NCBI GenBank assembly: GCA_900109895.1
Contig: FOBR01000020.1
Location: 1-64,000 of the forward strand
Direction of reading: 5' to 3'
Length of the DNA stretch: 64,000 nt
From: a bacterium A37T11
GTDB lineage: Bacteria; Bacteroidota; Bacteroidia; Sphingobacteriales; Sphingobacteriaceae
Positions 5,090-47,083 of this stretch are shown here, piece after piece. Positions within the stretch are counted from its first letter, which is position 1; every line of letters starts with the position of its first letter. The position numbers and the translations under genes were made by a program. A model generated the notes under the pieces. It searched no databases, was not told where the DNA came from, and saw only the letters and a list, made by a program, of their open reading frames with translations.

Positions 5090-6035
5090 CCACAAACTCT
5101 GCGAGGAATGTCAAATCTTGCAATCCCTCCAGCATTGTTATCCGTATATTCTTTAAATTTTGGGGCTCAATTGGATAGGACTGATAGCTTTTGTTGGCTG
5201 GATCAAACGTCAGGTTGTCGCCCAAAATGATCCAAGTTTTGCCATCCAAGCTGCCTTCCAATTTAAACTTGGTAAAGCCTCTAGAATTATTTTGTCGGGG
5301 TGCCATGGCTATTTTAGTCACATACGTTTCATTGATCATATCAAAGCTCAACCAATGCGGGAAAATAGTACTTGGTTCGGGATCATACCTGGAATGCCAT
5401 ATAGTATTAAGGTCTCCATCAAGTACTGCAGAAGCCAAACCGGTATTTTCTCCATTAAGCTGTTCGCTAGAGGCAGTAGCTATCCAGCCTTTCGTACTGG
5501 CAGGCCGTTCTTCCAGATGGGGTGCCACGAAAATGATAGTCTTTGTACTCGGATTTATAGGATAACCAGATGCATCGGTAATTGTAAATGCCAATAAATA
5601 GTCCTTATCAGAAGCAAAGGCTTCAGGATGATAGGTTAGCGTGCTGTACCCAGAATAAAGTTCACCTTTAGCAATGGTCAGTTCAAGGTTGTCAATATTA
5701 TATGAATCAGCCGGAAATAATTCATACGGCTCTTGTCCATTCGCTACACGAACCGCATTAAGACTATCTATAATCTGACCCGTGCTCTCAGACAAAGTGA
5801 TCTTTATATCGCCGGATGGATATCCTACCATTCCTAAACCAACATTGAACGGTAGCGTACGTTCTTCCAGATAGGGAAATATGGTTAAATTCTGGACTCC
5901 ATTATTTACTCGCGCGATAAAAACATTGGCCCCTTCTTTAGAATCGGTCAATTCCTCATATGCCGGTGTATCCTTGCCGCAGGCAAACATACTGAGGCCT
6001 AATAAAAACACTCCAAATTTATTTAGTATGTTCAT
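5076..6035 (-). CDS. Surface lipoprotein: DUF1735-like plus F5/8 type C (discoidin) domain
   Basis: 319 residues. The signal is lipoprotein-type (LGLSMFACGK, lipid-modified Cys at about residue 19). The middle part (about 35-165) matches DUF1735-like beta-sandwich domains of Bacteroidota surface proteins. The C-terminal part (about 180-319) is a discoidin/F5-8 type C carbohydrate-binding module: WIATASSEQLNG, AVLDGDLNTIWHSRY, PHWLSFDM, KIAMAPRQ and LEFVVYSY-like end motifs. It lies 25 bases after the SusD gene and is the last gene of the sigma-FecR-SusC-SusD operon. It is probably a surface glycan or glycoprotein-binding accessory that captures substrate for the transporter. No hydrolase is encoded here, so the locus may import material cut elsewhere. 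Confidence 0.85.
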   Translation of the reverse strand: MNILNKFGVFLLGLSMFACGKDTPAYEELTDSKEGANVFIARVNNGVQNLTIFPYLEERTLPFNVGLGMVGYPSGDIKITLSESTGQIIDSLNAVRVANGQEPYELFPADSYNIDNLELTIAKGELYSGYSTLTYHPEAFASDKDYLLAFTITDASGYPINPSTKTIIFVAPHLEERPASTKGWIATASSEQLNGENTGLASAVLDGDLNTIWHSRYDPEPSTIFPHWLSFDMINETYVTKIAMAPRQNNSRGFTKFKLEGSLDGKTWIILGDNLTFDPANKSYQSYPIEPQNLKNIRITMLEGLQDLTFLAEFVVYSY

Positions 6036-6060
6036 GATCTTTTACGTTAGGCTTTCTTTA

Positions 6061-7896
6061 TTAATATCCTGGAAATTGCACCAATTGTTTATTACGATCC
6101 ATTTCGTTTTGCCCATAAGGCATGAAATAATACCGCCGTTGCCAGGTAGTACGTGTGAAAGCTATGACTCTTGTGTGGAAGGCTGGGTCAGACAAACTAG
6201 TGCCTGCATCCATATTCATCCCATAAAAAGCCCCACCCTGATGAGAATCTGCCTGAGCGGGTATTTTCCAACGGCGGACGTCAAAATAGCGATGACCTTC
6301 AAAACAAAGCTCAATGCGTCGTTCCAAACGAATCTGCTTCCTCATTTCGCTTTGACTTAAGCCTGCGGCTAAAGCTGGCAAACCTGCGCGTGTACGCACG
6401 GCATTCAGATAGGTAAGAATAGCAGCATTGCCAGGATCACTTTCATTTAAGGCCTCCGCATAATTCAAATAAAGTTCCGCTAAACGGATCAACATAGCTG
6501 GACGGGAAACATTAACAGCAGGATCTATACTAAAAGTGGGATGAATATTTTTTCTGGCAGTGTATCCGGTTTTCGGCCAGTCCCTTGGTGCGCCTGCCTT
6601 TCCAGAAGTTCCCGTATTGAAAAATTCAACGCGGGCATTGTTAGCTCCTGTTTTGGCAACTGCTGGGTTTACAGAGCCATTAAATGTGATGTTTGCATAA
6701 AATCGCGGTTCCCTAGCTGTATACATTATATTGGTTCCGGCAACATAGTAAGAGCTTGCCTCAGTAACGTATTTGTCTTCTCTGTACATACTGTTTCCAT
6801 CAATAGACGTACCATCACTCATTCTGTAATCGTCTACAAGTTCTTGGGTAGCTGCTAATCCATTATATGCAGTTCCTTGGGTAGACCTCGGCGCAGTACT
6901 ACTTTCCCAATCCGTGATAGCTGAGGAAGGCCTCAACCATATTCCTTCACTTGACCAGCCATCCCAGTAGAGATTTCTTACTGAAAGGAATGCAGCGCGG
7001 AATGGATCAGCATTACTAACTTTAAATAGTTTTTTCCCTTGTCCCTCAGCAAGGTCGATGGCTTGTTTGGACGCTTGCGCAGCCGTTTGCCAACGGGAAG
7101 CATCATAAGACTGGTTAAACAATTGCTTTCCATCCAGGTTTCTAAAATCGGCCAATTCTGTATTCCCATTGTAGAGTGGGCTGGCATGGTACAATAATAT
7201 CTGCGATTTAACAGCCAATGCGATCATCTGATTAATACGTCCAACCTGTGTACCATCCACCGTAGTAGTTCCACCGATATAATGATCTACGGGAAGGTCC
7301 AAAATAGCTGAATCGATTTGACCGATCACAAAATTAACACATTCATCCCATGAACTGCGAGGGATTTGGAAGTCGTCTTCCGGTTCAGCCGGCTTAAGAG
7401 GAGCAATCACTACTGGGCCTAATTGTTTCATCATAAGCCAATAGTAGTAGGCTCTTAGGAACCGAGCATCTCCTTTATAATATTGAATGAGCTGAGAGCC
7501 ATTTTCAAGTGATTGTATTTCCTGGTTTCCATCAATACGTTCCAAAAAAATAGAGCAAAGTCGGATGCGTTCATACAAGGCCGTGAAATTGGATGGTGTA
7601 CCGTCAGCATTAATTGCCCCACTGTTAATGCCTGGATTTGTCCAGTTACTAGCGTCCATTTCGTCACTGGTAATGGAATACGTAAAGTTATATGGCTGAT
7701 CCCATATATCGGGTATATTGGTGAAGAGGCCTGCCCACCATCGTTCAGTCTGGCCACGATTAGCAAAAATTTCATCCACCGAAACAAGATTGTCGGGTTG
7801 TATATCAAAATAATCTTTACTACATCCTCCGGCCAATAATGTAACGATGGCCGCCGCAATAAAAAATGTGTTTTTTATGTGTGATTTCATGTTCAT
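6061..7896 (-). CDS. SusD/RagB outer-membrane substrate-binding lipoprotein
   Basis: 611 residues, within the SusD size range. Lipoprotein signal LLAGGCSKDYFDIQP near residue 25. Helical TPR-like features follow. ARFLRAYYYWLMMKQLGPV and IRLAELYLNYAEALNES are the two most typical SusD motifs, and RLERRIELCFEGHRYFDVRR is the conserved C-terminal segment. SusD sits as a lid on SusC and binds the incoming oligosaccharide or peptide at the cell surface. The gene begins six bases after the SusC stop and precedes the discoidin lipoprotein. The second in-frame ATG, two codons on, is an equally good start. The ligand cannot be told from sequence. Confidence 0.95.
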   Translation of the reverse strand: MNMKSHIKNTFFIAAAIVTLLAGGCSKDYFDIQPDNLVSVDEIFANRGQTERWWAGLFTNIPDIWDQPYNFTYSITSDEMDASNWTNPGINSGAINADGTPSNFTALYERIRLCSIFLERIDGNQEIQSLENGSQLIQYYKGDARFLRAYYYWLMMKQLGPVVIAPLKPAEPEDDFQIPRSSWDECVNFVIGQIDSAILDLPVDHYIGGTTTVDGTQVGRINQMIALAVKSQILLYHASPLYNGNTELADFRNLDGKQLFNQSYDASRWQTAAQASKQAIDLAEGQGKKLFKVSNADPFRAAFLSVRNLYWDGWSSEGIWLRPSSAITDWESSTAPRSTQGTAYNGLAATQELVDDYRMSDGTSIDGNSMYREDKYVTEASSYYVAGTNIMYTAREPRFYANITFNGSVNPAVAKTGANNARVEFFNTGTSGKAGAPRDWPKTGYTARKNIHPTFSIDPAVNVSRPAMLIRLAELYLNYAEALNESDPGNAAILTYLNAVRTRAGLPALAAGLSQSEMRKQIRLERRIELCFEGHRYFDVRRWKIPAQADSHQGGAFYGMNMDAGTSLSDPAFHTRVIAFTRTTWQRRYYFMPYGQNEMDRNKQLVQFPGY

Positions 7897-31863: not shown

Positions 31864-32175
31864 TTAGAAATGTACGCCAAGTTTGATGGCTTTGTAGGCA
31901 TTTACTACCCCGCCGGTGACGCAGTGGTCAACAAACTTGGTAGATTTGATAACTGATCGTAGAATGATTTCCTGTAACTGTGGTACCGTTAGTTTGGGAT
32001 AATAAGACCAGATCAGTGCAGCCAAACCAAAAACGACCGGGGCAGCCATACTGGTGCCATCCAGCCGTACGTACGTATTTTTTGGTGCCGTAGACCGATT
32101 GCGCACGCCGAGGGCAAATACATCCACTGTGATGGCTTTGAGGTTTCTGTTCATGGAAGTTCTTTTAATGTCCAA
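31864..32175 (-). pseudogene. Subtilase (S8) C-terminal fragment
   Basis: 103 residues. VRLDGTSMAAPVVFGLAALI is the catalytic-serine motif of subtilisin-like serine peptidases (GTSMAAP), followed by the usual helix YYPKLTVPQLQEIILRSV. The catalytic Asp and His regions are missing, because only the last third of the domain remains. ITVDVFALGVRNRSTAPKNT just before it is the strand leading to the serine. No start or signal peptide is seen, so this is a decayed gene rather than a small enzyme. Confidence 0.78.
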
Positions 32176-32301: not shown

Positions 32302-33642
32302 TTAATTTATAACCGTCGGTTCTCCTGGTTTTTTATCCGAAACAATGACGCAATCCAGTTCGCGGTTTTCGACGGTCAGGTCTAATCCTTTGCCATGCAG
32401 AAATGCGGTTAACTTGTCTTTATCGGTAAAATCAAATCCAACCGGAAAATCGATGTCCAATTCTTGTTTTAAACCCGAATCATCTATCACCTTGACGGTC
32501 TTAAATATCCAATAACTTAAAGGATTTACAATGGATTGAATGCTCATTTTATGCACGTACACCGAAATGTGATTTTTAGTAGCAGTGTGATATGACCAAA
32601 GATTTTCCTCGACTTCTGTTGCTGATGTTCGCTTAGTATAGCTTTTGGAAATATTCTTATTCGTCCTGACAATTAAACAAGGAAACATAGCTTTCCCCTT
32701 ACGCAGGGAAAAATTGAAGGCGTGGTCTAAATCTTCACCTAAGCTCTTTTGATACAATTGATCTAATTTTTTAAAATCCTGCGCTATAGGCTGTATGTTC
32801 AAATCATATAAAAATAAATTTGAAGTGGAGTTTGGATCATCAGAAATATTAAAAACCGAATCCTTTGTATCGTATTTAATTTGCGGATTTCCTTTAAAAA
32901 ATGATGGATGGGCCCGGGCATATGCCCCGATAAGGGAAAAATATTCATCTTCGCCAATGATCTGTTCTTTATCATTGTATTTTGGCCCTATGACGAGTCC
33001 TTCAAAAGGAAATGAATCATATTTCATCAAGGTGGAATTAACCAATACTCCTGTTCTTTTTTCTTCATCCACGTAGGAAATTAATGGGACATTTCGGTTC
33101 CAAAAATCATTCTTTAATGGAAAGTTAACCTTTTTACCATCTAATAATGCTTGAACGTTTTCTTTGGTAATTTGATCAGATCTGGTAATGGCTAATATTT
33201 TTCCATCCGGGCTGATGATTACCTCATGGGGTTCTGCCCGATGCGGGAATAAATTGCAAATAACCGAATCATATAAGCTAATAGGTAATGTAACATTATA
33301 CCCCAATCTCTTTTTTATGTTAGCAAATATTGCATTAACCCTTTCCGAATTATCAGTCTGCGAAGAATTAACCAGGATAATCTGTATTTTATCCTTAAAA
33401 TAGTCTTGCAGTTCCTGCATGTGTGAAAACAAATTGATGCAAGTCGTGCAGCCTGAAAACCAGTAGTCCAGAATAACAATTTTGCCTTTCATCTCGTTCA
33501 TTGAAAGGCTACTTTTTGGGTAGTTTATGACAGATGGAAAGATATAGTCGGGCATGTTTTGTCCGATCTTTATAGCTTTCGACTGGCTATGAGTGGTGAC
33601 ACTTAACAAAATTAAAATACCTAGTGCAAAAAAATTCTTCAT
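32302..33642 (-). CDS. TlpA-like thioredoxin-fold protein, third gene of a SusC-SusD-TlpA locus
   Basis: 446 residues, the minus-strand counterpart of the protein at 24972. Signal peptide (LGILILLSVTTHSQS) at about 5-19, then a thioredoxin fold with WFSGCTTCINLFSHMQELQD (CTTC) and the matching DSVICNLFPHRAEPHEVIIS segment. The C-terminal half is the same large domain as in the paralogue, with a longer charged middle. It lies 81 bases after the SusD stop on the same strand. The redox motif is CTTC here, CAAC in the first paralogue and CSPC in the short protein at 318, so the three probably differ in redox potential. Confidence 0.87.
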   Translation of the reverse strand: MKNFFALGILILLSVTTHSQSKAIKIGQNMPDYIFPSVINYPKSSLSMNEMKGKIVILDYWFSGCTTCINLFSHMQELQDYFKDKIQIILVNSSQTDNSERVNAIFANIKKRLGYNVTLPISLYDSVICNLFPHRAEPHEVIISPDGKILAITRSDQITKENVQALLDGKKVNFPLKNDFWNRNVPLISYVDEEKRTGVLVNSTLMKYDSFPFEGLVIGPKYNDKEQIIGEDEYFSLIGAYARAHPSFFKGNPQIKYDTKDSVFNISDDPNSTSNLFLYDLNIQPIAQDFKKLDQLYQKSLGEDLDHAFNFSLRKGKAMFPCLIVRTNKNISKSYTKRTSATEVEENLWSYHTATKNHISVYVHKMSIQSIVNPLSYWIFKTVKVIDDSGLKQELDIDFPVGFDFTDKDKLTAFLHGKGLDLTVENRELDCVIVSDKKPGEPTVIN

Positions 33643-33723: not shown

Positions 33724-35103
33724 CTAATACGGATTTTGTTCAATGCCGGAAAGTTGAATAATGTCATCAGGAATGGGGATAGCATAGCGGGGTGAATTTG
33801 GAGGCAACGTGTAAGTCGTACCATTCACTATTCGTTTCAACGTAATATTTGCGCCTTCCAAATTTAATCGTTTTACGTCCATCCAACGAAGACCTCGAAA
33901 TACTAATTCCTTGCGACGTTCTTGTAAAATCAGATTAATAGCCTGTTGCTGATCAGTCACTAAATGGCTCGCGTAAGGCACACTATTTGAATACCTGTTT
34001 TTTAATAAAGCATCTAAATCTTTCATGGCAGATACTAAATTCCCCTTTCGGGCAAAGGCTTCTGCCCTGATTAAATACATTTCGTCGGTGGCTATACCGT
34101 CAAAACCCGTACCAGGGAAACCGGCATATGAAGCATTATAGGAATAAGTATCATCCAAATTATGAATGTAAAATAGGGACTTGCGCAGATCATTTGTGTC
34201 ATACAACCGGATGAATACTGTATCCATGAGCGCACCAAAATAATAAGCCGAAACATTAAATCCATGCATACTATAAAATTTTAATTCCGGAACCAAAAAT
34301 TGTGGAAATGGAGATGCAAAATCTGTTATAGAATTATAATCTAACAGGGTTGAATTAACGTACAAACAAGAGTCGGCATATAATCCGCTGTTTTCATAAT
34401 CCCGCATGCTCAAATAGGTACGTGCTAACATGCCGTAAGCAGCGGCTTTGGTAGGTCTTAATACGTGAATGGATTGATCCGGTAGAAGTGTAGTAGCAGT
34501 CTTTAAATCTTTTATAATTAGCTGATAAGTTTCTTCCACGGAACTTCTGGATGTTTTTTGATTAAAATCGGTGGTTAACCGTAAAGGTAATCCTAAATCA
34601 GTTGCCGCACTGCTTGCATCATATCCTTTGGCAAAAGCAAAAATCAATTCCAGGAACATTCTTGCCCGGTGAAACAACGCTTGTCCTTTAATGTCATTTG
34701 CCCGCATTTGTTCATCTGGACTAATATTAAATTTATCCATATAACCCAGTACCGTATTGGCATAATAAATATAAGCATAGGCTAAAGACCAATCGTTAGT
34801 GCCATCGCCACTATTAGGTGTGGCTAGCTCAAAAATATTACTGTTTTTCCAGGTATAAAAATTTTTTGACGCTTCTCCATAAAGAGCATTAAAACTAGTG
34901 TTGGTCAAATAATAATCGTCACAGGCATCATCGGTGGAGCCTACGCCATAGTAAGGTAGACTTTGGTTGTCAAGTATGGATTGTAAATCCGTTAAATTGC
35001 CGGGCAAGGCGTAACTTTCATTTGACTTCACATCCAAGTATTTTTTACAGGATTGCAAAGAAATAATCAGCAGTGGACAAATTATGATGAATAGTTTTTT
35101 CAT
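33724..35103 (-). CDS. SusD-like lipoprotein partner
   Basis: 459 residues from the ATG at 35103, which begins MKKLFIIICPLLIISLQSCK, a good lipoprotein signal; an upstream start at 35127 would precede it with eight residues overlapping the SusC gene. Motifs as in its paralogue at 23586: LFHRARMFLELIFAFAKGYD, YGMLARTYLSMRDYENSGLY, TDEMYLIRAEAFARKGNLVS and ILQERRKELVFRGLRWMDVK. It should form the surface lid of the SusC encoded just upstream. The C-terminus (IPDDIIQLSGIEQNPY) is typical. Confidence 0.92.
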   Translation of the reverse strand: MKKLFIIICPLLIISLQSCKKYLDVKSNESYALPGNLTDLQSILDNQSLPYYGVGSTDDACDDYYLTNTSFNALYGEASKNFYTWKNSNIFELATPNSGDGTNDWSLAYAYIYYANTVLGYMDKFNISPDEQMRANDIKGQALFHRARMFLELIFAFAKGYDASSAATDLGLPLRLTTDFNQKTSRSSVEETYQLIIKDLKTATTLLPDQSIHVLRPTKAAAYGMLARTYLSMRDYENSGLYADSCLYVNSTLLDYNSITDFASPFPQFLVPELKFYSMHGFNVSAYYFGALMDTVFIRLYDTNDLRKSLFYIHNLDDTYSYNASYAGFPGTGFDGIATDEMYLIRAEAFARKGNLVSAMKDLDALLKNRYSNSVPYASHLVTDQQQAINLILQERRKELVFRGLRWMDVKRLNLEGANITLKRIVNGTTYTLPPNSPRYAIPIPDDIIQLSGIEQNPY

Positions 35104-35113
35104 TATTTTAAAT

Positions 35114-38100
35114 TTAAAAGGATGCATTTAAACCAATTGCAAAAACTTTGGATGGCTTTAAACTTCCAAATGTTCGTTGATAGTCAGGATCGATATTGGC
35201 TTTATTGGCTTTCCAAATAATTCCTAAGTTTTGGGCATTCGCATATACATTCAACGTGTTAATACCCATATGGCTTAACCAAGATGGGCTTACGGAATAA
35301 GTTAAACGAATGTAGTTTAACCGGATATTGTCTCCTTTGTCCACTAAAATATTTGAATTGTTATAAAAACTATCCCGATTACCATTTAACGGATACACTA
35401 AAGAAGGGACATTGGTGTGCGCTTCATCACCCGGTTGCTGCCATCTTTTTGCATAGTCTGAACTGCCATTCCCACTAGTGGAAAGATCTGAATATTTGAT
35501 GGAGGGTCGGCGAAAATAATATCCAAATTTGTAAAGAAGATTAACGGTAAGGCTAATACGATTCCACTCTACCGTATTTCCGATAGCTCCAAAATAGGTA
35601 GGGCTGGCAGGGCCGTTGTATACCGCATTCCGATTGGAGCTTTGCCTTATTCCATAATAGTCTGTACTTACTTGTCCATTTAGGTATCCTTGCGGGTCGC
35701 CAGTTTGTGGATTTAAGCCAGCCCATTGGTAGGAATACACACCGTAAACAGCGTTCTTTCCACCATGAGATAATACAGCCGCTCCTACTATCCCCCCCAA
35801 AGTAGTATCTGTAGTCGTATAAGCTATGACCCGGTCTTTATACCAACTCATATTCCAGGACGTTGTCCACGAAATAGGCCCTGTCATGTTTTTGGTTACT
35901 AGCTGCACATCGATGCCGTTGCCAGCGGTTGATGCTGTATTTTGTTTTTGGTAAGGAACAGGAATATTCGTGTAATCCACCGCTACATTCCCATACAGGT
36001 CAGAAGTCTCTTTGTGGTAGTATTCAACCGAACCCGAGATCACTTGGTTTTTGGTAGCGAAGTCAATGCCGATGTTCGTTTGCCCTACATTTTCCCATCG
36101 TAAATCCGGATTATCATAACTTACAAAGTGTGACCAAGGAGTGCCTAGATTAGAATTGGCATAAGGAGCATAAATAATAGTAGTCACACCTACCGCATCT
36201 GGGATGATGTTACCGCTATAACCATAGGTTGCCCGTAGTTTTAAATAAGGAAAAAGCGAAAATGTGTAGAACTTCTCTTTGGAAATATCCCAGCTTAACC
36301 CAGATGACCACAAAGGTTTCCATTTATTATTGATAGTCGCACCAAAGATATTAGACCCGTCTTTCCGCATACTGGCAGATAGGGTGTATTTATCGGCATA
36401 GGTATAAGCCGCATTAGCTAATGCTGAGACAAATCGAGTAGTCGTCTTATAAACTGATGTACCATAAGGAATATAGCCAGAAAATTGACTGATGATCGTA
36501 GGATAAGGATTTACATAATCAACAGCTACATTAGAGTACGTATTGGGATCAAAGCCATAGATTCTATCACCAAAAATGTCTGTTACAGCAGATCTTATTT
36601 CCCCGGCTGCCAGCGCAGTGATGCTATTTTTACCCCAGGATTTATCTAAACTTAATTGTCCTCTAACTTGATTTGACTCCAAGGAATTTTCACTTATGTC
36701 TTCAATATTCCCCATGGGGACCGCATAAACAGGCAAGGCTCCATTTGGAAGTTGAGTGTAAGTATTTATTAGGCCACGTGTGTAATAACTTTGCAGATCG
36801 TTCATCGTACTTCCATTTGACTTTTGCTTCTCATACTGGTAATTAAAACTGACGCGAAGAAAGGATGTGAGCTGATAGGCCAGGGAAGTATTTAAGGTAA
36901 TGTCTATTTGCTTGCCATCGGTAGTTGTATGTTTATAATCTTCCAGGGGATAATATTTCCAGTCTAATAGCTTACCCTGACCCAAGGTATCCAAAAAAGG
37001 TTGCCTGTATTTGTAGATAGGTAAATCGTTACCGTCATCATCCGCTAAGCGGGTATAAACTGGCACATAGGTATAGCCATTCCCTCCAATACCATTATAA
37101 CCCGGCCTTCCATTGGTACTATTATTCTGCGTAAGGTTTATTCCTGCCGTTAATTCCAGATTTTTTACCGGTTTAAAAACATTGAAAGAGGATAAATTAA
37201 TGCGCTGTGAGCCTGCATTCAGGTTATCGACATTTTTATCATAACCGGCCGCGAGGTTATAGGCTATGTTATTCGTACCTCCATTCACATTTAATGCATA
37301 CTGTTGGTTTACACCCTGTCGATACAGGTATTTATCGAAGTCATCCCTTACATCATATTGTTTCAGATTATTGATCTGTGCATTGACCTCATTCGCCAAT
37401 GTAGGATTATCCCTTGCTTTGATCAAAAGTTCTACCACGGGTGATAATGAAGGTCGAGAATATATATCATTTTCATTAGATTTGTAATATCCATTATTAA
37501 ACAAAGTCTTTTCAAAATCAATAAAGTCTGATGAGGAGATTTGTGGAATATCGAAAAGGTTTGGCTTGGTGATGATACTTGTGTTGGCATTAACCGTCAC
37601 TTGTATCTTTTGCCCGAAATTACCATGCTTAGTAGTAATGACGATGACCCCGTTGCCTGCCCGGGCACCCCAGATACTTGCCGCAGCCGCATCTTTTAAA
37701 ATGGTAATGTCTTTAACATTATTTGGATTTAGGTTGCTTAGGTCACCGTCATAAGGGAAATTATCCACAACAATTAATGGATCTCTTTGACCAGATATGG
37801 TGCTGATTCCCCTGATGGTAATGCCTGTTGTTCCTGTACCAATCTGTTTTCTATCCACATTGAGACCACTGGCAATGCCTTCCAACCGGTCTAAAATGTT
37901 TGTCCCGACCTGCTCGTTGAATTTCTTTTCGTCGATGTAATCAAATGAACCAGTTGCCCGCTCTTTGGCGAACTTTTGGTAACCGGTGTTTACGGTAACT
38001 TGGGCTTCTTCTAACGTGGAGGTGGTGCGGCTTAGAATAATCGTGCTGAGGTGATCGGAAATGGGTACCTCACGCGTGGTGTAACCAAGGTAGGAAATTT

Positions 38101-38698
38101 GGAGGATGGCGTCGTTTTCGACGCCTCTGAGCGTAAATTCGCCGTTTTTGTCGGTGAAGGTAGCCCGGTTCTTTCCTTTCACGCGGACGGTTGCGTTTTC
38201 TAAGGGATTGCCCAAGGAATCGGTGACGCGGCCGGTAATTATTTGCTGGGCTGCACCCTCAGATTTCTCGTCGCTGCGCTCGCTCGAAATAACGAGGGCG
38301 CCACGGATAGCGTCTCGGGTATTCTCCAAAATCGATTTCTCCCGAATCACAATGATCTTTCCGTCCAACTCATACGTTAAAGGTAGGCCTTGCAGAAGTT
38401 GTTCTACTGCGGTTTCAAGCGTGGCGTCTTTGAGTTGTACCGTGATTTTACGGTCGCTCTTGAGGTTTTCGGGCAGCCAGAGGTATTGGTAGCCGGTCTG
38501 CTGGTTGATGAGGGTCAGGGCATTTTCTATGGTCATCTGCTGGCGTTCGATGCTGACGCGTTGAGCATATACCCCGGCCCGGATCTGCAAAAGACCGATG
38601 ATCATAAAGGCGAGTGTTGTATTAAACCACATAAATCCTGTTTTAAGCCAATGGCTTGCAGGGTGGCAAGAACGATGGATTGTATCGTTTTTGTTCAT
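35114..38698 (-). CDS. SusC-like transporter with STN domain and repeat-derived insertion
   Basis: 1194 residues. Signal region (about 22-45), STN domain (about 48-120), carboxypeptidase-regulatory-like domain (about 153-225), TonB box/plug with VNTGYQKFAKERATGSFDYI, LIVVDNFPYDG and ITILKDAAAASIWGARAGNG, and barrel. It belongs to the same KERATGSF subfamily as 20496 but keeps the N-terminal domains. Between STN and the next domain lie about 16 extra residues (SSERSDEKSEG) that the SusC at 7903 lacks. Their DNA (38258-38297) matches a common Bacteroidota intergenic repeat. The STN domain links this transporter to the FecR at 38894, but the sigma factor of the locus appears broken. Confidence 0.93.
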   Translation of the reverse strand: MNKNDTIHRSCHPASHWLKTGFMWFNTTLAFMIIGLLQIRAGVYAQRVSIERQQMTIENALTLINQQTGYQYLWLPENLKSDRKITVQLKDATLETAVEQLLQGLPLTYELDGKIIVIREKSILENTRDAIRGALVISSERSDEKSEGAAQQIITGRVTDSLGNPLENATVRVKGKNRATFTDKNGEFTLRGVENDAILQISYLGYTTREVPISDHLSTIILSRTTSTLEEAQVTVNTGYQKFAKERATGSFDYIDEKKFNEQVGTNILDRLEGIASGLNVDRKQIGTGTTGITIRGISTISGQRDPLIVVDNFPYDGDLSNLNPNNVKDITILKDAAAASIWGARAGNGVIVITTKHGNFGQKIQVTVNANTSIITKPNLFDIPQISSSDFIDFEKTLFNNGYYKSNENDIYSRPSLSPVVELLIKARDNPTLANEVNAQINNLKQYDVRDDFDKYLYRQGVNQQYALNVNGGTNNIAYNLAAGYDKNVDNLNAGSQRINLSSFNVFKPVKNLELTAGINLTQNNSTNGRPGYNGIGGNGYTYVPVYTRLADDDGNDLPIYKYRQPFLDTLGQGKLLDWKYYPLEDYKHTTTDGKQIDITLNTSLAYQLTSFLRVSFNYQYEKQKSNGSTMNDLQSYYTRGLINTYTQLPNGALPVYAVPMGNIEDISENSLESNQVRGQLSLDKSWGKNSITALAAGEIRSAVTDIFGDRIYGFDPNTYSNVAVDYVNPYPTIISQFSGYIPYGTSVYKTTTRFVSALANAAYTYADKYTLSASMRKDGSNIFGATINNKWKPLWSSGLSWDISKEKFYTFSLFPYLKLRATYGYSGNIIPDAVGVTTIIYAPYANSNLGTPWSHFVSYDNPDLRWENVGQTNIGIDFATKNQVISGSVEYYHKETSDLYGNVAVDYTNIPVPYQKQNTASTAGNGIDVQLVTKNMTGPISWTTSWNMSWYKDRVIAYTTTDTTLGGIVGAAVLSHGGKNAVYGVYSYQWAGLNPQTGDPQGYLNGQVSTDYYGIRQSSNRNAVYNGPASPTYFGAIGNTVEWNRISLTVNLLYKFGYYFRRPSIKYSDLSTSGNGSSDYAKRWQQPGDEAHTNVPSLVYPLNGNRDSFYNNSNILVDKGDNIRLNYIRLTYSVSPSWLSHMGINTLNVYANAQNLGIIWKANKANIDPDYQRTFGSLKPSKVFAIGLNASF
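38258..38297. repeat. Intergenic-type repeat inside the SusC gene
   Basis: Plus strand reads CTCAGATTTCTCGTCGCTGC and then GCTCGCTCGAAATAACGAG, which is the well-known Bacteroidota interspersed repeat normally found between genes (AGATTTCTCGTCGCT..CGCTCGAAATGACG). It is in frame and adds about 13-16 residues to SusC. Confidence 0.7.
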
Positions 38699-38893: not shown

Positions 38894-40156
38894 TTATTTT
38901 TTCTTTATGGTTAATCGTTTTCCGGTTATGGTGAACTTTAAGCCTGCCTTTTCAAAGATCCGAAGGATGGTTGACAGGTTTTCCTGCCGGTTGATGATAC
39001 CTGATACGGGTGCTTGCTTTAGGGCCTCATCGGTGAAGATGACGTTGAGGTCATACCAGCGGGCTATTTGCTGCATGGCGCCACCCAGATTTTCGCCAGT
39101 GAACCGGAATTCGTTGTTTTTCCAAGCGATAGATTTTTGGATGTCGGTTTTTGTTTTTGTGAAGTTATCTGCTTTAAGGATACTTTGTTCGCCGGGTTTT
39201 AGGACAAATCCGTCATTCCTCCCCCTCCCATCGCTCGACACCTGAACAGCGCCCGTGACGAGGGTTGTTTTGACGGATGGCTCATAGGAATTGATATTGA
39301 ACTCCGTGCCGAGAACGGTGGTTTGTTGATTCCGGCTCTTCACTATAAATGGAGCATTTGATTTACGATTTACGAGGTACGATTTACGATTATCCTGCAT
39401 GGCGCCGATTGAAGGATTGTTATTTACTTCGAAGTAGGCTTCGCCTTCCAAATAGACTTCTCTGCTATCGCCGCTGAAGCGGCTTGGGTACTTCAACGTA
39501 CTGGCAGCATTTAACCAGACTTTGGTGCCGTCGCTTAATATTATTTGGTATTGCCCCCCCTTCGGGGTGGTTAACGTTAAAGAAGTGGGCAGAGATCCTT
39601 CGGCTCCCCCTTGCTCTTTCCCACGCTCACCGCTCAGGATGACGTTCTGGACGGGATTCCCGTTGCTGTATTTAATGTCTTGGTCATTGACAACGATTCC
39701 GCTTTGCGCTGAATCTAAGGCTATTTTAGTGCCGTCGGCCAGGGTCAGGGTGGCTTGGTTGTAGCCGGGGGCAACATCCTGAACTGGGAGGTTGCTGCGA
39801 TTGAAATAGATTGCAGTGGCTATTGCTGCTAGCAGTATTGGTAGAATGAGGTAACTATATTTTCTATATAAAAGGCGTTGCTTAATAGATGGGCGTAAGG
39901 TTTGTGTGGTGGGTTTGGTGTGGGTTTGGGCAGCGGTGGCGGCCATAATGCGCTGATAAAGTGCTGTGGCTTGTTCCGGTGTCCTATTGGCTACCTCGGG
40001 GCTGTCCATGAGTAGGCTGGCGTGCTGGGCTATAGCCGCTTCCCATTCATCCAGGTGGTGGCCGCTTTCGATGTATTGCAACACCTGCTGTGCTTCCGCG
40101 GCATCGCAGTGGTTATCCTGGAATTTCCTGAAAAGTGCTACAAGCTGTGCGTCCAT
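38894..40156 (-). CDS. FecR-family anti-sigma factor with repeat-derived insertions
   Basis: 420 residues, against 389 for the other FecR here. Membrane span SYLILPILLAAIATAIYF (about 101-118), then FecR motifs IILSDGTKVWLNAASTLKYP and EVYLEGEAYFEV, and DUF4974 with the NLSTILRIFEKAGLKF end. Three stretches have no counterpart in the 11413 protein: residues 172-189 (SGERGKEQGGAEGS), 252-267 (MQDNRKSYLVNRKS) and 308-316 (DGRGRNDG). The DNA of the first two is repeat-type sequence (39588-39652 and 39360-39393). The reading frame stays open. It probably still folds, but its partner sigma factor (41803..42390) carries a stop codon. Confidence 0.92.
   Translation of the reverse strand: MDAQLVALFRKFQDNHCDAAEAQQVLQYIESGHHLDEWEAAIAQHASLLMDSPEVANRTPEQATALYQRIMAATAAQTHTKPTTQTLRPSIKQRLLYRKYSYLILPILLAAIATAIYFNRSNLPVQDVAPGYNQATLTLADGTKIALDSAQSGIVVNDQDIKYSNGNPVQNVILSGERGKEQGGAEGSLPTSLTLTTPKGGQYQIILSDGTKVWLNAASTLKYPSRFSGDSREVYLEGEAYFEVNNNPSIGAMQDNRKSYLVNRKSNAPFIVKSRNQQTTVLGTEFNINSYEPSVKTTLVTGAVQVSSDGRGRNDGFVLKPGEQSILKADNFTKTKTDIQKSIAWKNNEFRFTGENLGGAMQQIARWYDLNVIFTDEALKQAPVSGIINRQENLSTILRIFEKAGLKFTITGKRLTIKKK
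39360..39393. repeat. Intergenic-type repeat inside FecR (second insertion)
   Basis: GATTTACGATTTACGAGGTA continues with CGATTTACGATTA, a repeated TTACGA unit typical of Bacteroidota intergenic DNA. It encodes the in-frame extra residues DNRKSYLVNRKS. Confidence 0.65.
39588..39652. repeat. Intergenic-type repeat inside FecR (first insertion)
   Basis: AGATCCTTCGGCTCCCCCTT followed later by CGCTCAGGATGACG are the two ends of the widespread repeat AGATCCTTCG...CGCTCAGGATGACG. It encodes SGERGKEQGGAEGS in frame. Confidence 0.7.
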
Positions 40157-40235: not shown

Positions 40236-41780
40236 TTAGCTCTGTAGTTCTTCTACCTTAAAATCGGCTACTGCTTTCTTTTCGGATGAAAAATTAATGC
40301 CTATAGCAACTTTTTTGCGGGGGTCTAATTGGTATACTTTTAAATAATCGCGGTCAAAAATCTGCTGAATAGCGGTATTCGCCGATTTTTCAAGCTTAAA
40401 CTCGATGCCATAGATGGTGGTGGCAGTCTTAACGACAATATCTATACGGCCAAGGGCATTGTGAACCTCGCTTTCCATATGAATGCCAAGCAGGTCAAAC
40501 GTGTTTTGGATAATACCATGATATAAGGCCTCGTTATGGCCTTTCCAAAGTGGGTTAGGTATTTTAATAAATAAGGTGTCAATTATTTTGATCACTTTCG
40601 GTATGTCACCCATTGAAAATGCCATTTTTAGGGACATTACCGTGGGTTGAATATTTGCAACATCTTCATTGCTGTAGGCAGCCGTTAGGTAACTGAGCAT
40701 GCTTTGCTCCACTTCGCGGTTTGGATAACCCAGATTAAATATTGCTTGTTCCTCATCAAAGCTTTTGATGGTGAGAAATCCTGCCTGGTACAACATCGTC
40801 ACGGGATTGATAGTATCCACAAATGACTCTTCCATTGCATCGGCTCCCACCAGAATGTCTTCCCTGCCAAACAAGTATCGTTCAGGATGTTTCCGTACAG
40901 CCGTGACTAGGAAGGTAGGCATGCCTGTATTGATCCAGTAATTGCGGAATGTTCCTTGGGTATCCATCAGGTTCAGAATAGAAAAGGGGTTATACAACGT
41001 TTCTGTACCGCCCCAGGAGTACCCATTGTACCAGGATTTTATTTTTTCAAGCACATCCGGGTTCTTTTCCTGCATCGCGCTGATCTCTTCTTCAAAATTG
41101 CTTTCCAATTCTTTCTGTGTAATACCTACTAAGGTTGTATAATTGGGGTGCAGGGAAATGTCTTTAATGTTATTTAATTCTGAAAAGATCCCAACCCGGC
41201 TGAAACGGCTAACGCCGGTAATCATCAGCAGCTGGATGTAGTCATCAGAGTCTTTTAGTACCGAATAAAAAATACGAAATATCTCTTTGTTTTCCAGTAC
41301 TTTATCTTGGTTGTCAAGGTAGTCTATTATCGGCTTATCGTATTCATCAACAAGGATCACGACAGGTGCATCAGCAGCAGCTTTTTCGATCAGTTCCCTG
41401 AATTTTTCTTTCAGGTGGATTTTCTCTAGCACCAATCCTAAATCACTAGCAATGATATCCAATTCATCGTTCAACGCTTTATATAGACCAGCACCCTGGT
41501 AATTAATCAAACTGACCCGCAGATGGATCACGGGGTGTTTTTGCTCCCAGTTCCACTGATCAGCAATCCAAAGCCCTTCAAATAGCTCCTTACTGCCAGA
41601 AAATAACTCCTTGATGGTGTTTAATAGCAGTGATTTTCCAAATCTGCGAGGTCGGCTCAGGAAGTAATATTTGCCTGATGTCACCAGTTGGTGAATGTTT
41701 TCTGTTTTATCCACTAACATATATCCATCTTCGCGGATTTTCCGGAAACTCTGCAAACCGATGGGATATTTTCTGTTCAT
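40236..41780 (-). CDS. AAA-ATPase-like plus PD-(D/E)XK nuclease protein (DUF1703 type)
   Basis: 514 residues. The N-terminal AAA-ATPase-like domain (about 1-280) begins with the usual PIGLQSFRKIREDGYMLVDK and has the Walker A variant RPRRFGKSLLLNTIKELF and a Walker B-like VILVDEYDKPIIDYL. The C-terminal PD-(D/E)XK nuclease part (about 410-500) shows GRIDIVV then GIEFKLEKS (D...E-x-K). These genes occur in many copies in Bacteroidota genomes and behave as selfish or defence-like elements; the role is unproven. It lies between the sigma gene and FecR, which normally adjoin, so it has been inserted into that regulatory pair. No terminal repeats were recognised at its edges. Confidence 0.88.
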   Translation of the reverse strand: MNRKYPIGLQSFRKIREDGYMLVDKTENIHQLVTSGKYYFLSRPRRFGKSLLLNTIKELFSGSKELFEGLWIADQWNWEQKHPVIHLRVSLINYQGAGLYKALNDELDIIASDLGLVLEKIHLKEKFRELIEKAAADAPVVILVDEYDKPIIDYLDNQDKVLENKEIFRIFYSVLKDSDDYIQLLMITGVSRFSRVGIFSELNNIKDISLHPNYTTLVGITQKELESNFEEEISAMQEKNPDVLEKIKSWYNGYSWGGTETLYNPFSILNLMDTQGTFRNYWINTGMPTFLVTAVRKHPERYLFGREDILVGADAMEESFVDTINPVTMLYQAGFLTIKSFDEEQAIFNLGYPNREVEQSMLSYLTAAYSNEDVANIQPTVMSLKMAFSMGDIPKVIKIIDTLFIKIPNPLWKGHNEALYHGIIQNTFDLLGIHMESEVHNALGRIDIVVKTATTIYGIEFKLEKSANTAIQQIFDRDYLKVYQLDPRKKVAIGINFSSEKKAVADFKVEELQS

Positions 41781-41802
41781 GCCCCAAAGTTAGGGAAAAT
41801 AT

Positions 41803-42390
41803 TTAAGAGAAAAATAGGGCGGCCATCAGCAAAAGCAGGCCATTACGGGTGCGCATGTATTTACGGATGATGTCCCAGGCTTTTACCATCTGATTATTGA
41901 TGGTGCTTTCGCTGATACCCAGTTCAATGGCAGCTTGCTGGTGGGTGAGGCCTTCTACCTGGCATTTTTCAAACACGGCTCTGCACCGCTCGGGTAGTTG
42001 GTCCAGCGCCTCGGCATAAAGTGCGCTGCTTTCTTTAAAGTCCAGGAGCAGTTCGGTGCTGTTTTCATCCAGCACGACCGACCGCCTGATTTCATCCATA
42101 ATACGGGTTTCACGGCTGGCCCTGCCTAATAGATTTAATAGATTATGGCGGGCAATGGTATATAGATAGGGTTTAAACGGCTGTTGCGGGTCCAGGTGAT
42201 CGCGGTTTTCCCATATCTTTTGGAAATCTTGCACCACATCTTCAGAAAGCTCCCGCGACTTCGCTGTTTTCTGGATAAAATAGAGCAATTAATCTGCAAA
42301 GCGCCAGTAAAGTGCACCCAGCGCTTCTGACTGCCCAGCTTTTAGCTGTTCCAACAACTCGTTTTCAGGTATTTCAGGCCGGCTGGACAT
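41803..42390 (-). pseudogene. ECF sigma factor with in-frame nonsense codon
   Basis: Starting at the ATG 42390-42388, 33 codons encode a normal ECF N-terminus (NELLEQLKAGQSEALGALYW then RFAD), after which TAA (42291-42289) interrupts the frame. The same frame then continues for 161 codons with LLYFIQKTAKSRELSEDVVQ (region 2) and LPERCRAVFEKCQVEGLTHQ plus AAIELGISESTINNQMVKAW (region 4). A single base change CAA to TAA would explain it. VVQDFQKIW also looks one residue short compared with the usual VVQDxFQKIW. Restart at the TTG next to the stop would remove the first helix of region 2. It probably no longer serves the FecR at 38894. Confidence 0.8.
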
Positions 42391-42461: not shown

Positions 42462-43136
42462 TCAGCCATCGAATTTGTATCCCATACCATAGGTGGTTTT
42501 GATGTAATCTTTGCTACTGGCATGTTTGAGCTTTTGCCGCAAGTTACGCATATGTACATAGACCGTATCAAAATTGTCTGCCTGGTCAAAATGATCACCC
42601 CACAAGTGTTCGGCAATGGCTGACTTGCTAACAACCCGGTGCTTATTTACCACAAAATAGACTAACAGCTCGTATTCCTTACGGGTTAGGATGATCTGTT
42701 CCTTTTTATAAAATAACAACTTGGCCATCGGTTCGATGATGAAATCATCAAAGCAGATCTGCTCAGCACCTTTTAATATTTTCCGCCGGTATATGGCGTT
42801 GATACGGGCATTTAGCTCTTCCAGATGACAGGGTTTGGTTAAGTAGTCATCTGCACCTAAATGAAACCCCGCCAACTTATCTGCTAATGAATTCTTGGCA
42901 GACAAAATCAAAATGCCGGTTTCTACCTGTTTGGATCGGATGGTAGGAATAAGATCCATGCCTGAACCATCCGGAAGGCTGATATCCAATACGACGATGT
43001 CATAAAAATAGGTATGCAGCTTTTCTTCTGCCAGACGGAAGGTGGCCGCTTGTTCACACACAAAATTAAGGGAAGAGAAATAATCTTCCATTACTTTCAG
43101 CGTCGCAGTCTCATCCTCTACAAATAATAGTTTCAT
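42462..43136 (-). CDS. OmpR-type response regulator
   Basis: 224 residues. The receiver domain holds Asp51 in DIVVLDISLPDGSG, the acidic pocket LFVEDE, and the switch segment ILILSAKNS with Lys of TKP near residue 105. The C-terminal winged helix (about 130-224) is OmpR/PhoB type, with LTRKEYELLVYFVVNKHRVV and the end DYIKTTYGMGYKFDG. It is a complete two-component output. No histidine kinase gene adjoins it in the window: upstream is a plus-strand iron-type cluster, downstream the broken sigma factor. It is therefore an orphan or is paired elsewhere. It could regulate the divergent gene at 43290 through the 150-base gap; inferred only. Confidence 0.92.
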   Translation of the reverse strand: MKLLFVEDETATLKVMEDYFSSLNFVCEQAATFRLAEEKLHTYFYDIVVLDISLPDGSGMDLIPTIRSKQVETGILILSAKNSLADKLAGFHLGADDYLTKPCHLEELNARINAIYRRKILKGAEQICFDDFIIEPMAKLLFYKKEQIILTRKEYELLVYFVVNKHRVVSKSAIAEHLWGDHFDQADNFDTVYVHMRNLRQKLKHASSKDYIKTTYGMGYKFDG

Positions 43137-44604: not shown

Positions 44605-45753
44605 ATGAATTTAGCATCAGGGTTCAGAAAAGCAGGAAGCCTTTTCGTGATTATTTTAACCATCTATGCCTGCTCCAAAAAGGACGGCACCAGCAAGCAG
44701 GAGGAAGAGAAACCCGGTGTAGACCGTAAGGCCCTGCTTACCTACCTGGCCGATGATCTCATTATTCCTTCCTATACCAATTTTAAGACAAGTTTTGGAC
44801 AATTACTGGCAAAAAGCGACGCGTTTACCACCTCGCCCACCTTGTCCTCCTTAACCGAACTAAGAGAAGCTTGGGTAAATGCTTATATTTCCTGGCAAAA
44901 GATTGAATTGATTGATGTAGGGCCAGCCCAGGAACAAAATATTCGTTCATTTTTTAACATATATCCTACCAATGTAAGCAATATACAATCGGGTATCGCT
45001 AGCGGGAATACCGATTTTAATTTACCTGCTACCTACGCGCAACAGGGCTTTCCGGCAATAGATTTTCTGCTTAATGGTCTTGCCGGTACAGACCCGGAAA
45101 TATTGACCTTTTACACGAACGCCCCGGATGCGGTAAAGCGGATAGCTTACTTAAAAAAAATTACGGAGCAGATGAATACGGTATTTACCAAAGTATATGA
45201 TCCGTGGGTTACTGGCACCTACCGGGAAACATTTACCAGCCGCACGGGTACTGATGCTAGTTCATCATTAGCTATACTGGTTAATGGTTATGTTCTTAAC
45301 TATGAGCGCTACATTAGGTCGGGTAAATTTGGTATCCCATCCGGCGCCATGATGAATGGCGTGGTGGCTGCCGAGAAAGTAGAGGCCCTGTATAAAAAGA
45401 ATATTTCATTGACGTTGGCCAAAACGGCATTTCAGGCTTCCATTGACTTTTTCAATGGAAAGAGCGTGAAAAATGGAACAGAAGGTCTTTCTTTTAAATC
45501 CTATTTAGATGCCGTGGATGCAAAAGACAGCCAAACCGGGGTAAAATTATCCAAAACCATTGCCGATCAGTTTGCGGCTACCAACGTGAAGCTGGACTTA
45601 TTGTCTGAAAATTTGAATGAAGAAGTTAAAAACAATAACCAGAAAATGATCGATGTTTATACAGAGATGCAAAAATCGGTACGCATGCTAAAGGTAGATA
45701 TGACCTCGGCAATGAGTATTGTCATCACCTATACGGATAATGACGGTGACTAA
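44605..45753 (+). CDS. Imelysin-like lipoprotein
   Basis: 382 residues. Lipoprotein signal ending IYACSKKDGTS. Imelysin (peptidase M75, insulin-cleaving membrane protease fold) features are LREAWVNAYISWQKIELIDV, RSFFNIYPTNVSNIQSGIAS and QQGFPAIDFLLNG. In active-type imelysins the last motif is GxHxxE; here it reads GFPAIDF, so the His and Glu are missing and peptidase activity is unlikely. Imelysin-like proteins bind haem or iron at the surface. The gene overlaps the start of the HTTM protein gene by 14 bases, which supports one operon. Confidence 0.9.
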   Translation: MNLASGFRKAGSLFVIILTIYACSKKDGTSKQEEEKPGVDRKALLTYLADDLIIPSYTNFKTSFGQLLAKSDAFTTSPTLSSLTELREAWVNAYISWQKIELIDVGPAQEQNIRSFFNIYPTNVSNIQSGIASGNTDFNLPATYAQQGFPAIDFLLNGLAGTDPEILTFYTNAPDAVKRIAYLKKITEQMNTVFTKVYDPWVTGTYRETFTSRTGTDASSSLAILVNGYVLNYERYIRSGKFGIPSGAMMNGVVAAEKVEALYKKNISLTLAKTAFQASIDFFNGKSVKNGTEGLSFKSYLDAVDAKDSQTGVKLSKTIADQFAATNVKLDLLSENLNEEVKNNNQKMIDVYTEMQKSVRMLKVDMTSAMSIVITYTDNDGD

Positions 45754-47083
45754 ACGGACTTCTATTGCTCCCCTGGCCGTATACCGCATCGCCATTGGAC
45801 TGATGCTCTTCTTGAGCATTGTGCGCTTTTGGGCTAAGGGGTGGATTTCGCAGTTATACATCGTTCCGCATTATTTTTTCCCATTTTATGGTTTTGAATT
45901 TGTCAAACCATTGGGCATATACACGTATGGCATTTTTGCCTTGTGTGCCATAGCAGCCTTACTGGTTGCTATTGGCCTTTTTTACCGGGTGGCATCCGTT
46001 GTCCTGTTTCTCAGTTTTACTTACATTGAGCTGATGGATAAGAGCACCTATCTGAACCATTACTATTTCATGAGCCTGGTGCTGTTCATGCTGCTGTTTT
46101 TACCTGCTCATCGTTATTTTTCAGTAGATGCCTGGCGAAATAAAAAATTGTTGGCAGACCAAGTTCCAAGATGGAATTTGGACATGCTTAAATTGTTGTT
46201 AGTTATACTCTATTTCTATGCCGGCCTGGCCAAAATAAACAGCGATTGGCTAGGGCATGCCCTTCCGCTTAAAATTTGGTTGCCAGCCCGCAACGACCTT
46301 CCGTTGATTGGCTGGTTATTTAACTATCAGGCTACTGCGTTTGTTTTTAGCTGGTTTGGATGCATCTATGATCTGTCTATCGGATTTTTACTATGGAATA
46401 AACGGACGCGACCCTTTGCATACCTGGCAGTGATTGTGTTTCATGGAATGACGGCGGTTTTATTTCCGATTGGCATGTTTCCCTACGTGATGATGGTGGC
46501 CTCCCTCATCTTTTTTTCTGCAGCCTTTCATTTGCGCATCATTGGCTTTCTGAACCGCTTTTTTAAATGCCCGGATACGTTTATTCGTCCAAAGAGGCCT
46601 TATACCTATTCGAATGGTGTGCAAAAAGTTTTACTTACTGGGTTTTCCTTTTTTTTTCTGGTACAATTGTTACTGCCCTTTCGGTATTGGCTTTATCCTG
46701 GAGAGCTTTTCTGGACAGAACAAGGCTTCCGGTTTTCCTGGCGGGTGATGCTTATAGAAAAAGCGGGTTATGCCCAATTTACTGTTAAAGAAGCGAATGG
46801 TAAAGCCATCGTGGCAGATAATTCAAAATTTTTAACGGTACTGCAGGAGAAAATGATGAGTACGCAGCCCGATATGATCTTGCAGTATGCCCATTTGCTC
46901 CGTGACCATTATGCGAAACACGGTTTCCGGTCGCCGGAGGTTTATGTGGAGGACTATGTGGTGCTAAACGGTCGCCGCGGAAGAATGTTCATTGATCTCC
47001 ATACGGATTTGGCAAAAGAACAGGAGTCTTTTAAAGCCAAATCCTGGATTTTACCCTTAAACGATGAAATTAAAGGTTTTTAG
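45740..47083 (+). CDS. HTTM-domain membrane protein
   Basis: 447 residues from the ATG at 45740. The gene belongs to the HTTM (horizontally transferred transmembrane) group related to vitamin K-dependent gamma-carboxylase. Many spans are visible, for example FALCAIAALLVAIGLFYRVA and LLLVILYFYAGLAKINSDWL, the latter a family motif. The C-terminal third (about 345-447) is a soluble domain with LLIEKAGYAQFTVKEANGKA. Such proteins sit beside imelysin and TonB receptors in Bacteroidota and their role in iron uptake is unresolved. The end overlaps the TonB receptor start by 20 bases. Confidence 0.88.
   Translation: MTVTKRTSIAPLAVYRIAIGLMLFLSIVRFWAKGWISQLYIVPHYFFPFYGFEFVKPLGIYTYGIFALCAIAALLVAIGLFYRVASVVLFLSFTYIELMDKSTYLNHYYFMSLVLFMLLFLPAHRYFSVDAWRNKKLLADQVPRWNLDMLKLLLVILYFYAGLAKINSDWLGHALPLKIWLPARNDLPLIGWLFNYQATAFVFSWFGCIYDLSIGFLLWNKRTRPFAYLAVIVFHGMTAVLFPIGMFPYVMMVASLIFFSAAFHLRIIGFLNRFFKCPDTFIRPKRPYTYSNGVQKVLLTGFSFFFLVQLLLPFRYWLYPGELFWTEQGFRFSWRVMLIEKAGYAQFTVKEANGKAIVADNSKFLTVLQEKMMSTQPDMILQYAHLLRDHYAKHGFRSPEVYVEDYVVLNGRRGRMFIDLHTDLAKEQESFKAKSWILPLNDEIKGF

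Follow-up and report, generated by a model that had tools for sequence, protein, structure and literature searches.

A FecI-like ECF sigma factor gene, probably a young pseudogene, at a FecR-SusC-SusD-TlpA locus of a Sphingobacteriaceae bacterium

The window analysed here is a stretch of 64,000 nucleotides (contig FOBR01000020.1) from the draft genome of the Sphingobacteriaceae bacterium A37T11. Its minus strand carries a SusC/SusD locus together with an ECF sigma factor gene that is interrupted by a stop codon. The features on which our argument rests are the following, in the order in which they are read on that strand:

41803..42390 (-), disrupted ECF sigma-70 gene, 195 codons including an internal TAA, plus the terminal TAA; regions 2 and 4 recognised by Pfam
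42289..42291 (-), premature in-frame stop TAA, codon 34 of the reading frame from the ATG at 42390
41803..42288 (-), downstream open frame of 161 aa from a TTG, a possible restart product without the N-terminus (from the frame and Pfam)
42223..42228 (-), junction Asp55|Phe56, one codon shorter than in the other aligned ECFs (region 2.2 helix)
41785..41792 (-), TAACTTTG, a candidate promoter element immediately ahead of the start codon of the AAA gene (from the sequence and the promoter consensus)
40236..41780 (-), AAA-ATPase_like (PF09820) plus PDDEXK_9 (PF08011) gene, 514 aa, between ECF and FecR (domain search)
38894..40156 (-), FecR-type anti-sigma factor/sigma regulator (domain search and sequence comparison)
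35114..38698 (-), SusC/RagA TonB-linked receptor with an STN signalling domain, intact (domain search)
33724..35127 (-), SusD-like lipoprotein, intact (domain search)
32302..33642 (-), TlpA/thioredoxin-like protein, intact (domain search)
31864..32175 (-), subtilase fragment (Peptidase_S8, profile positions 199-273 of 288; domain search)

The structural genes downstream of the ECF gene are all open, and the FecR, FecR_C, STN and Plug domains of a surface-signalling system follow it on the same strand. The locus shares with FecI-FecR-FecA cell-surface signalling in E. coli (PMC9249621), and with the Bacteroidota ECF/FecR/SusC counterparts, an ECF sigma factor, a FecR with a cytoplasmic N-terminus and an STN-bearing TonB receptor within one locus; it differs from them in that the sigma gene is broken and that an AAA/nuclease gene splits ECF from FecR. 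In all ten relative loci that we mapped, the order is ECF, FecR, SusC, SusD, with no AAA gene, and the only exception to direct adjacency that we read is a locus (L036) in which 1.65 kb without a clear gene separates ECF from FecR. A preliminary description of this DNA had implied that ECF and FecR are adjacent here, which the 514-aa AAA-ATPase_like/PDDEXK_9 gene between them contradicts. Because none of the ten relative loci has this gene between ECF and FecR, it is probably an insertion.

Some further features surround these genes. The subtilase fragment behind TlpA is probably a remnant. Directly upstream of the ECF gene, on the same strand, lies an OmpR-type response regulator (42462-43136), flanked on its other side by a DUF4856 gene of opposite orientation; among the annotated neighbours of this regulator we found no histidine kinase. 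Further along (45719-47083), a protein with HTTM and vitamin K-dependent gamma-carboxylase lumenal domains adjoins imelysin and TonB receptor genes. In one relative locus (L038 of G065, 5594-7868), two genes between FecR and SusC resemble, by eye, an IS21-type transposase pair.

From the ATG at 42390 the ECF gene opens with the N-terminus MSSRPEIPENELLEQLKAGQSEALGALYWRFAD, and sense codons run up to Asp33, where they are followed by the TAA at 42291-42289. Past this stop the same frame runs on without interruption for 161 codons (LLYFIQKTAKSRELSEDVVQD...), up to the natural stop TAA at 41805-41803. In a search of the bacterium's own genome, both halves form one continuous match of 195 aa with a single TAA inside. 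With the stop masked as X, Pfam recognises region 2 (PF04542) at 34.6 bits and region 4 (PF08281) at 51.9 bits, and in the downstream frame alone it still finds them at 32 and 50 bits. A stop-free stretch of this length arose in only 0.1% of composition shuffles, which contained 7.6 stops on average. Given the continuous match, the recognisable regions and the shuffles, the open frame of the remainder is not due to chance. In the alignment column of the stop, the residue in close relatives is Q, K or R in most cases, and internal stops are absent from them. The preliminary description, which had reported a FecR/SusC-type ECF gene with an in-frame TAA after Asp33 and the same frame running on through regions 2 and 4, is thus borne out by sequence, frame and Pfam alike, and the relatives are intact. 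An altered genetic code can be ruled out: TAA is the ordinary stop of the ECF, AAA, FecR, SusC and TlpA genes, and therefore the premature TAA does not code for an amino acid.

The same description took the remainder of the gene to be intact, and here the alignment speaks against it. One codon has been lost between Asp55 (42228-42226) and Phe56 (42225-42223), so that the strongly conserved region 2.2 helix, VVQD-FQKIW in the window as compared with VVQDVFIKIW or VVHDTFIKVW in relatives, is one residue short. No other ECF spanning this helix shows the gap, among the aligned paralogues from the same genome and relatives from the Sphingobacteriaceae. The gene therefore carries two lesions in total, the TAA and an in-frame codon deletion. 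Regions 2.1-2.2 of sigma factors bind the RNA polymerase core, and for this reason the loss of a residue within the 2.2 helix is expected to be harmful.

The nearest relatives of this ECF, in Pedobacter and other Sphingobacteriaceae, are at most 57% identical to it. Within its own genome the best paralogues reach only 36-38%; we found no close stand-in and no other member of its subfamily. Its best NCBIfam match is TIGR02985 (Sig70_bacteroi1), over residues 25-178, yet it stays under the cut-off of 126.4: the stop-masked sequence scores 124.2 and the product of a restart at the TTG (42288) 117.5, unlike an intact relative (L020, G169), which passes with 128.1.

The damage does not look old. 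The terminal branch leading to the window ECF (0.91) is not unusually long when compared with those of other lone lineages (0.73-1.4), and the sequence deviates at only three otherwise invariant positions, the same as intact rows of the alignment. In this frame 4.2% of single substitutions produce a stop, so that damage limited to a single stop and a single in-frame deletion, without any frameshift, suggests that few neutral changes have accumulated so far. With no frameshift, a branch within the range of others and only three invariant positions changed, the inactivation is probably young, and we therefore agree with the earlier view that the mutation looks recent, the frame being otherwise open.

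Which regulator the locus would have lost can be judged from FecR. In E. coli, FecR uses its N-terminal residues 9-59 to bind FecI specifically and activate it (PMC9249621). In the window FecR, residues ~1-80 find their best matches in FecRs of other species whose genes neighbour members of the window ECF's own subfamily. The N-terminal domain also falls among these FecRs in a tree, with low branch support, and a tree joining it to the FecR group of its own genome is rejected (p-AU 2.7e-5). Across 44 FecRs, distances between ECFs correlate more closely with those between FecR N-termini (Spearman 0.43) than with those between the C-terminal parts (0.25). Judged by these comparisons, the window ECF looks cognate to the local FecR. 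Residues ~90-420 of this FecR are much closer to the FecRs of other loci in its own genome, and the full-length tree groups it with them (support 97/87). This suggests a mosaic protein, with a sigma-binding N-terminus of the Pedobacter-type subfamily and a periplasmic part like that of the genome's other FecRs; the mosaic is suggested rather than proven, since a C-terminal tree placing this part with the ECF subfamily is not rejected (p-AU 0.14). The earlier proposal that the locus is deprived of its specific activator appears reasonable, given that the FecR N-terminus seems to belong with this ECF and that no close paralogue was found.

The gene inserted between ECF and FecR belongs to a family with several copies in this genome. 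Its N-terminal PF09820 domain (190.3 bits) and C-terminal PF08011 domain (53.0 bits) both score above their cut-offs. The TAACTTTG at 41785..41792 resembles the Bacteroidota -7 promoter element, and similar sequences precede most of the other copies; no terminator-like site was found between the AAA gene and FecR on the minus strand. In this genome the PF09820 genes number 14, counting complete and partial ones, besides one short fragment. In five cases the same strand carries an ECF gene or an ECF remnant within 200 bp downstream of the AAA gene:

C17:202476-204071, AAA gene next to an ECF or its remnant
C19:119362-120936, AAA gene next to an ECF or its remnant
C19:128134-129747, AAA gene next to an ECF or its remnant
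C28:160048-161649, AAA gene next to an ECF or its remnant
C27:44846-46012, AAA gene next to an ECF or its remnant

Together with the window copy, which sits 22 bp downstream of its ECF, this makes six ECF-adjacent genes out of 14, against ~0.5 expected at random placement (P ~7e-6, a rough value, computed after the pattern had been seen and with duplicated loci that are not independent). The family is rare among 301 genomes of the bacterial family, and the surroundings of AAA genes in other genomes of the family and class, 36 stretches in all, show no such close arrangement: an ECF gene occurs in two of the 36, in neither case as a close neighbour on the same strand. We therefore rejected the idea that the AAA gene is a standing partner of ECFs, and the neighbourhood is specific to this lineage among the genomes checked. 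The same two-domain make-up is found in the DUF1703-type proteins that are expanded in Cardinium cCpun (PMC6387759); like those, the genes are multi-copy here, but their proximity to ECF genes has no close parallel in the other genomes checked. A shortened AAA gene at C19:106675-108095 is flanked on either side by 117-nt direct repeats (L137 6676-6792 and 7980-8096), which are 98% identical and cover the beginning of its promoter region. We considered whether the window gene is likewise an element with terminal repeats and discarded the idea, as it has no flanking direct repeats, unlike that copy.

The genome in which these events took place (5.09 Mb in 60 contigs, 97.5% complete) gives 84 ECF matches, a few of which are pieces of one gene, so that there are roughly 80 ECF genes. 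At least three others are clearly broken:

C15:271233-271741 (L012), ECF in two frames, truncated
C28:159647-159954 (L014), ECF in two frames, truncated
C24:6727-7286 (L016), ECF with a frameshift

Further partial matches lie at C27:39.7 kb, C52:2.4 kb and C24:289.5 kb. The three copies listed have broken frames, as does the window copy, but by frameshift or truncation, whereas the latter carries a stop and an in-frame deletion. The C24 frameshift, too, falls in region 2.2, but it is a different lesion. A recurrent or programmed interruption of ECF genes was also considered and rejected, since the TAA codons at C19:85487 and C39:20080 proved to be natural gene ends. In another SusC locus (C15:390960-393743, L142), SusD and TlpA are each split into two frames. 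The loss of single ECF genes is thus ordinary in this genome.

In our view, with a probability of roughly 85%, a FecI-like (Bacteroidota-type) ECF sigma factor gene has here become a young pseudogene, and the FecR-SusC-SusD-TlpA genes are left without a specific sigma factor. In that case functional sigma factor would not be produced, TonB/STN-FecR signalling from the window SusC would lack its specific output, and the four genes would be silent or would depend for their transcription on other promoters, such as the putative promoter of the inserted AAA/nuclease gene. The cause would probably be a relaxed need for one of ~80 ECF/SusC systems. Two alternatives would spare the sigma factor. That the genome truly encodes an intact ECF, hidden by a sequencing or assembly error, is made conceivable by the draft state of the assembly, in 60 contigs, and by the single codon that stands between the frame and openness; but consensus errors do not typically take the form of a substitution to TAA, the independent codon deletion would remain, and the neighbours over 8 kb (AAA, FecR, SusC, SusD and TlpA) are all open, so that we hold such an error to be very improbable. 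We give just as little credence to a functional product arising from a restart at the TTG or from read-through. The 161 open codons and the recognisable regions 2 and 4 would allow for it, but the TTG lies inside region 2.1 and a restart there, while keeping profile positions 12-70 of 71, would do away with the N-terminal 34 codons, that is, everything before region 2.1 and part of 2.1 itself. Read-through must contend with TAA being a general stop here. Both products would retain the region 2.2 deletion, which makes a rescue of function unlikely, and both fall below the TIGR02985 cut-off that the intact relative passes.

A further scenario concerns the order of events and is a variant of the pseudogene explanation, so that the two are not exclusive. 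The insertion of the AAA/nuclease gene may have split ECF from FecR and left the ECF already an orphan, its decay coming later; the SusC locus may then run from the AAA promoter, and there would have been no recent loss of regulation. Among the ten relative loci mapped and the window, only the latter has the AAA gene in this position, and the promoter-like sequence ahead of that gene, with no terminator-like site before FecR on the minus strand, is compatible with such a history. So is a second ECF/FecR pair of the same genome, split by an AAA_14 gene (C24:234831-236339, L264 6832-8340; DUF4143 below cut-off). The ECF of this pair (C24:235-236 kb), however, is intact although it is separated from its FecR, and we regard the orphan-first order as possible but rather unlikely. 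Considerably more doubtful is a wider proposal, in which AAA/nuclease genes would in this lineage favour the heads of ECF-FecR-SusC loci as places of insertion and, together with the exchange of sigma/anti-sigma-domain modules between SusC loci that a mosaic FecR evokes, would repeatedly rewire or kill surface signalling, the window ECF being one outcome.

In sum, the broken ECF gene of the window is ordinary decay of one of ~80 such regulators; only two aspects deserve a second look, the apparently mosaic FecR and the AAA/nuclease neighbours, the latter being mildly unusual. Taken alone, the finding has small significance: it adds another inactivated regulator to those of a genome in which SusC/SusD systems are in large surplus. 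Should the structural genes still be expressed, the locus would be a small natural experiment on how a SusC locus fares without its sigma factor. The presence of AAA/nuclease genes at ECF loci, along with the putatively mosaic FecR, offers a testable lead on how Bacteroidota may reshuffle the regulation of their uptake systems.
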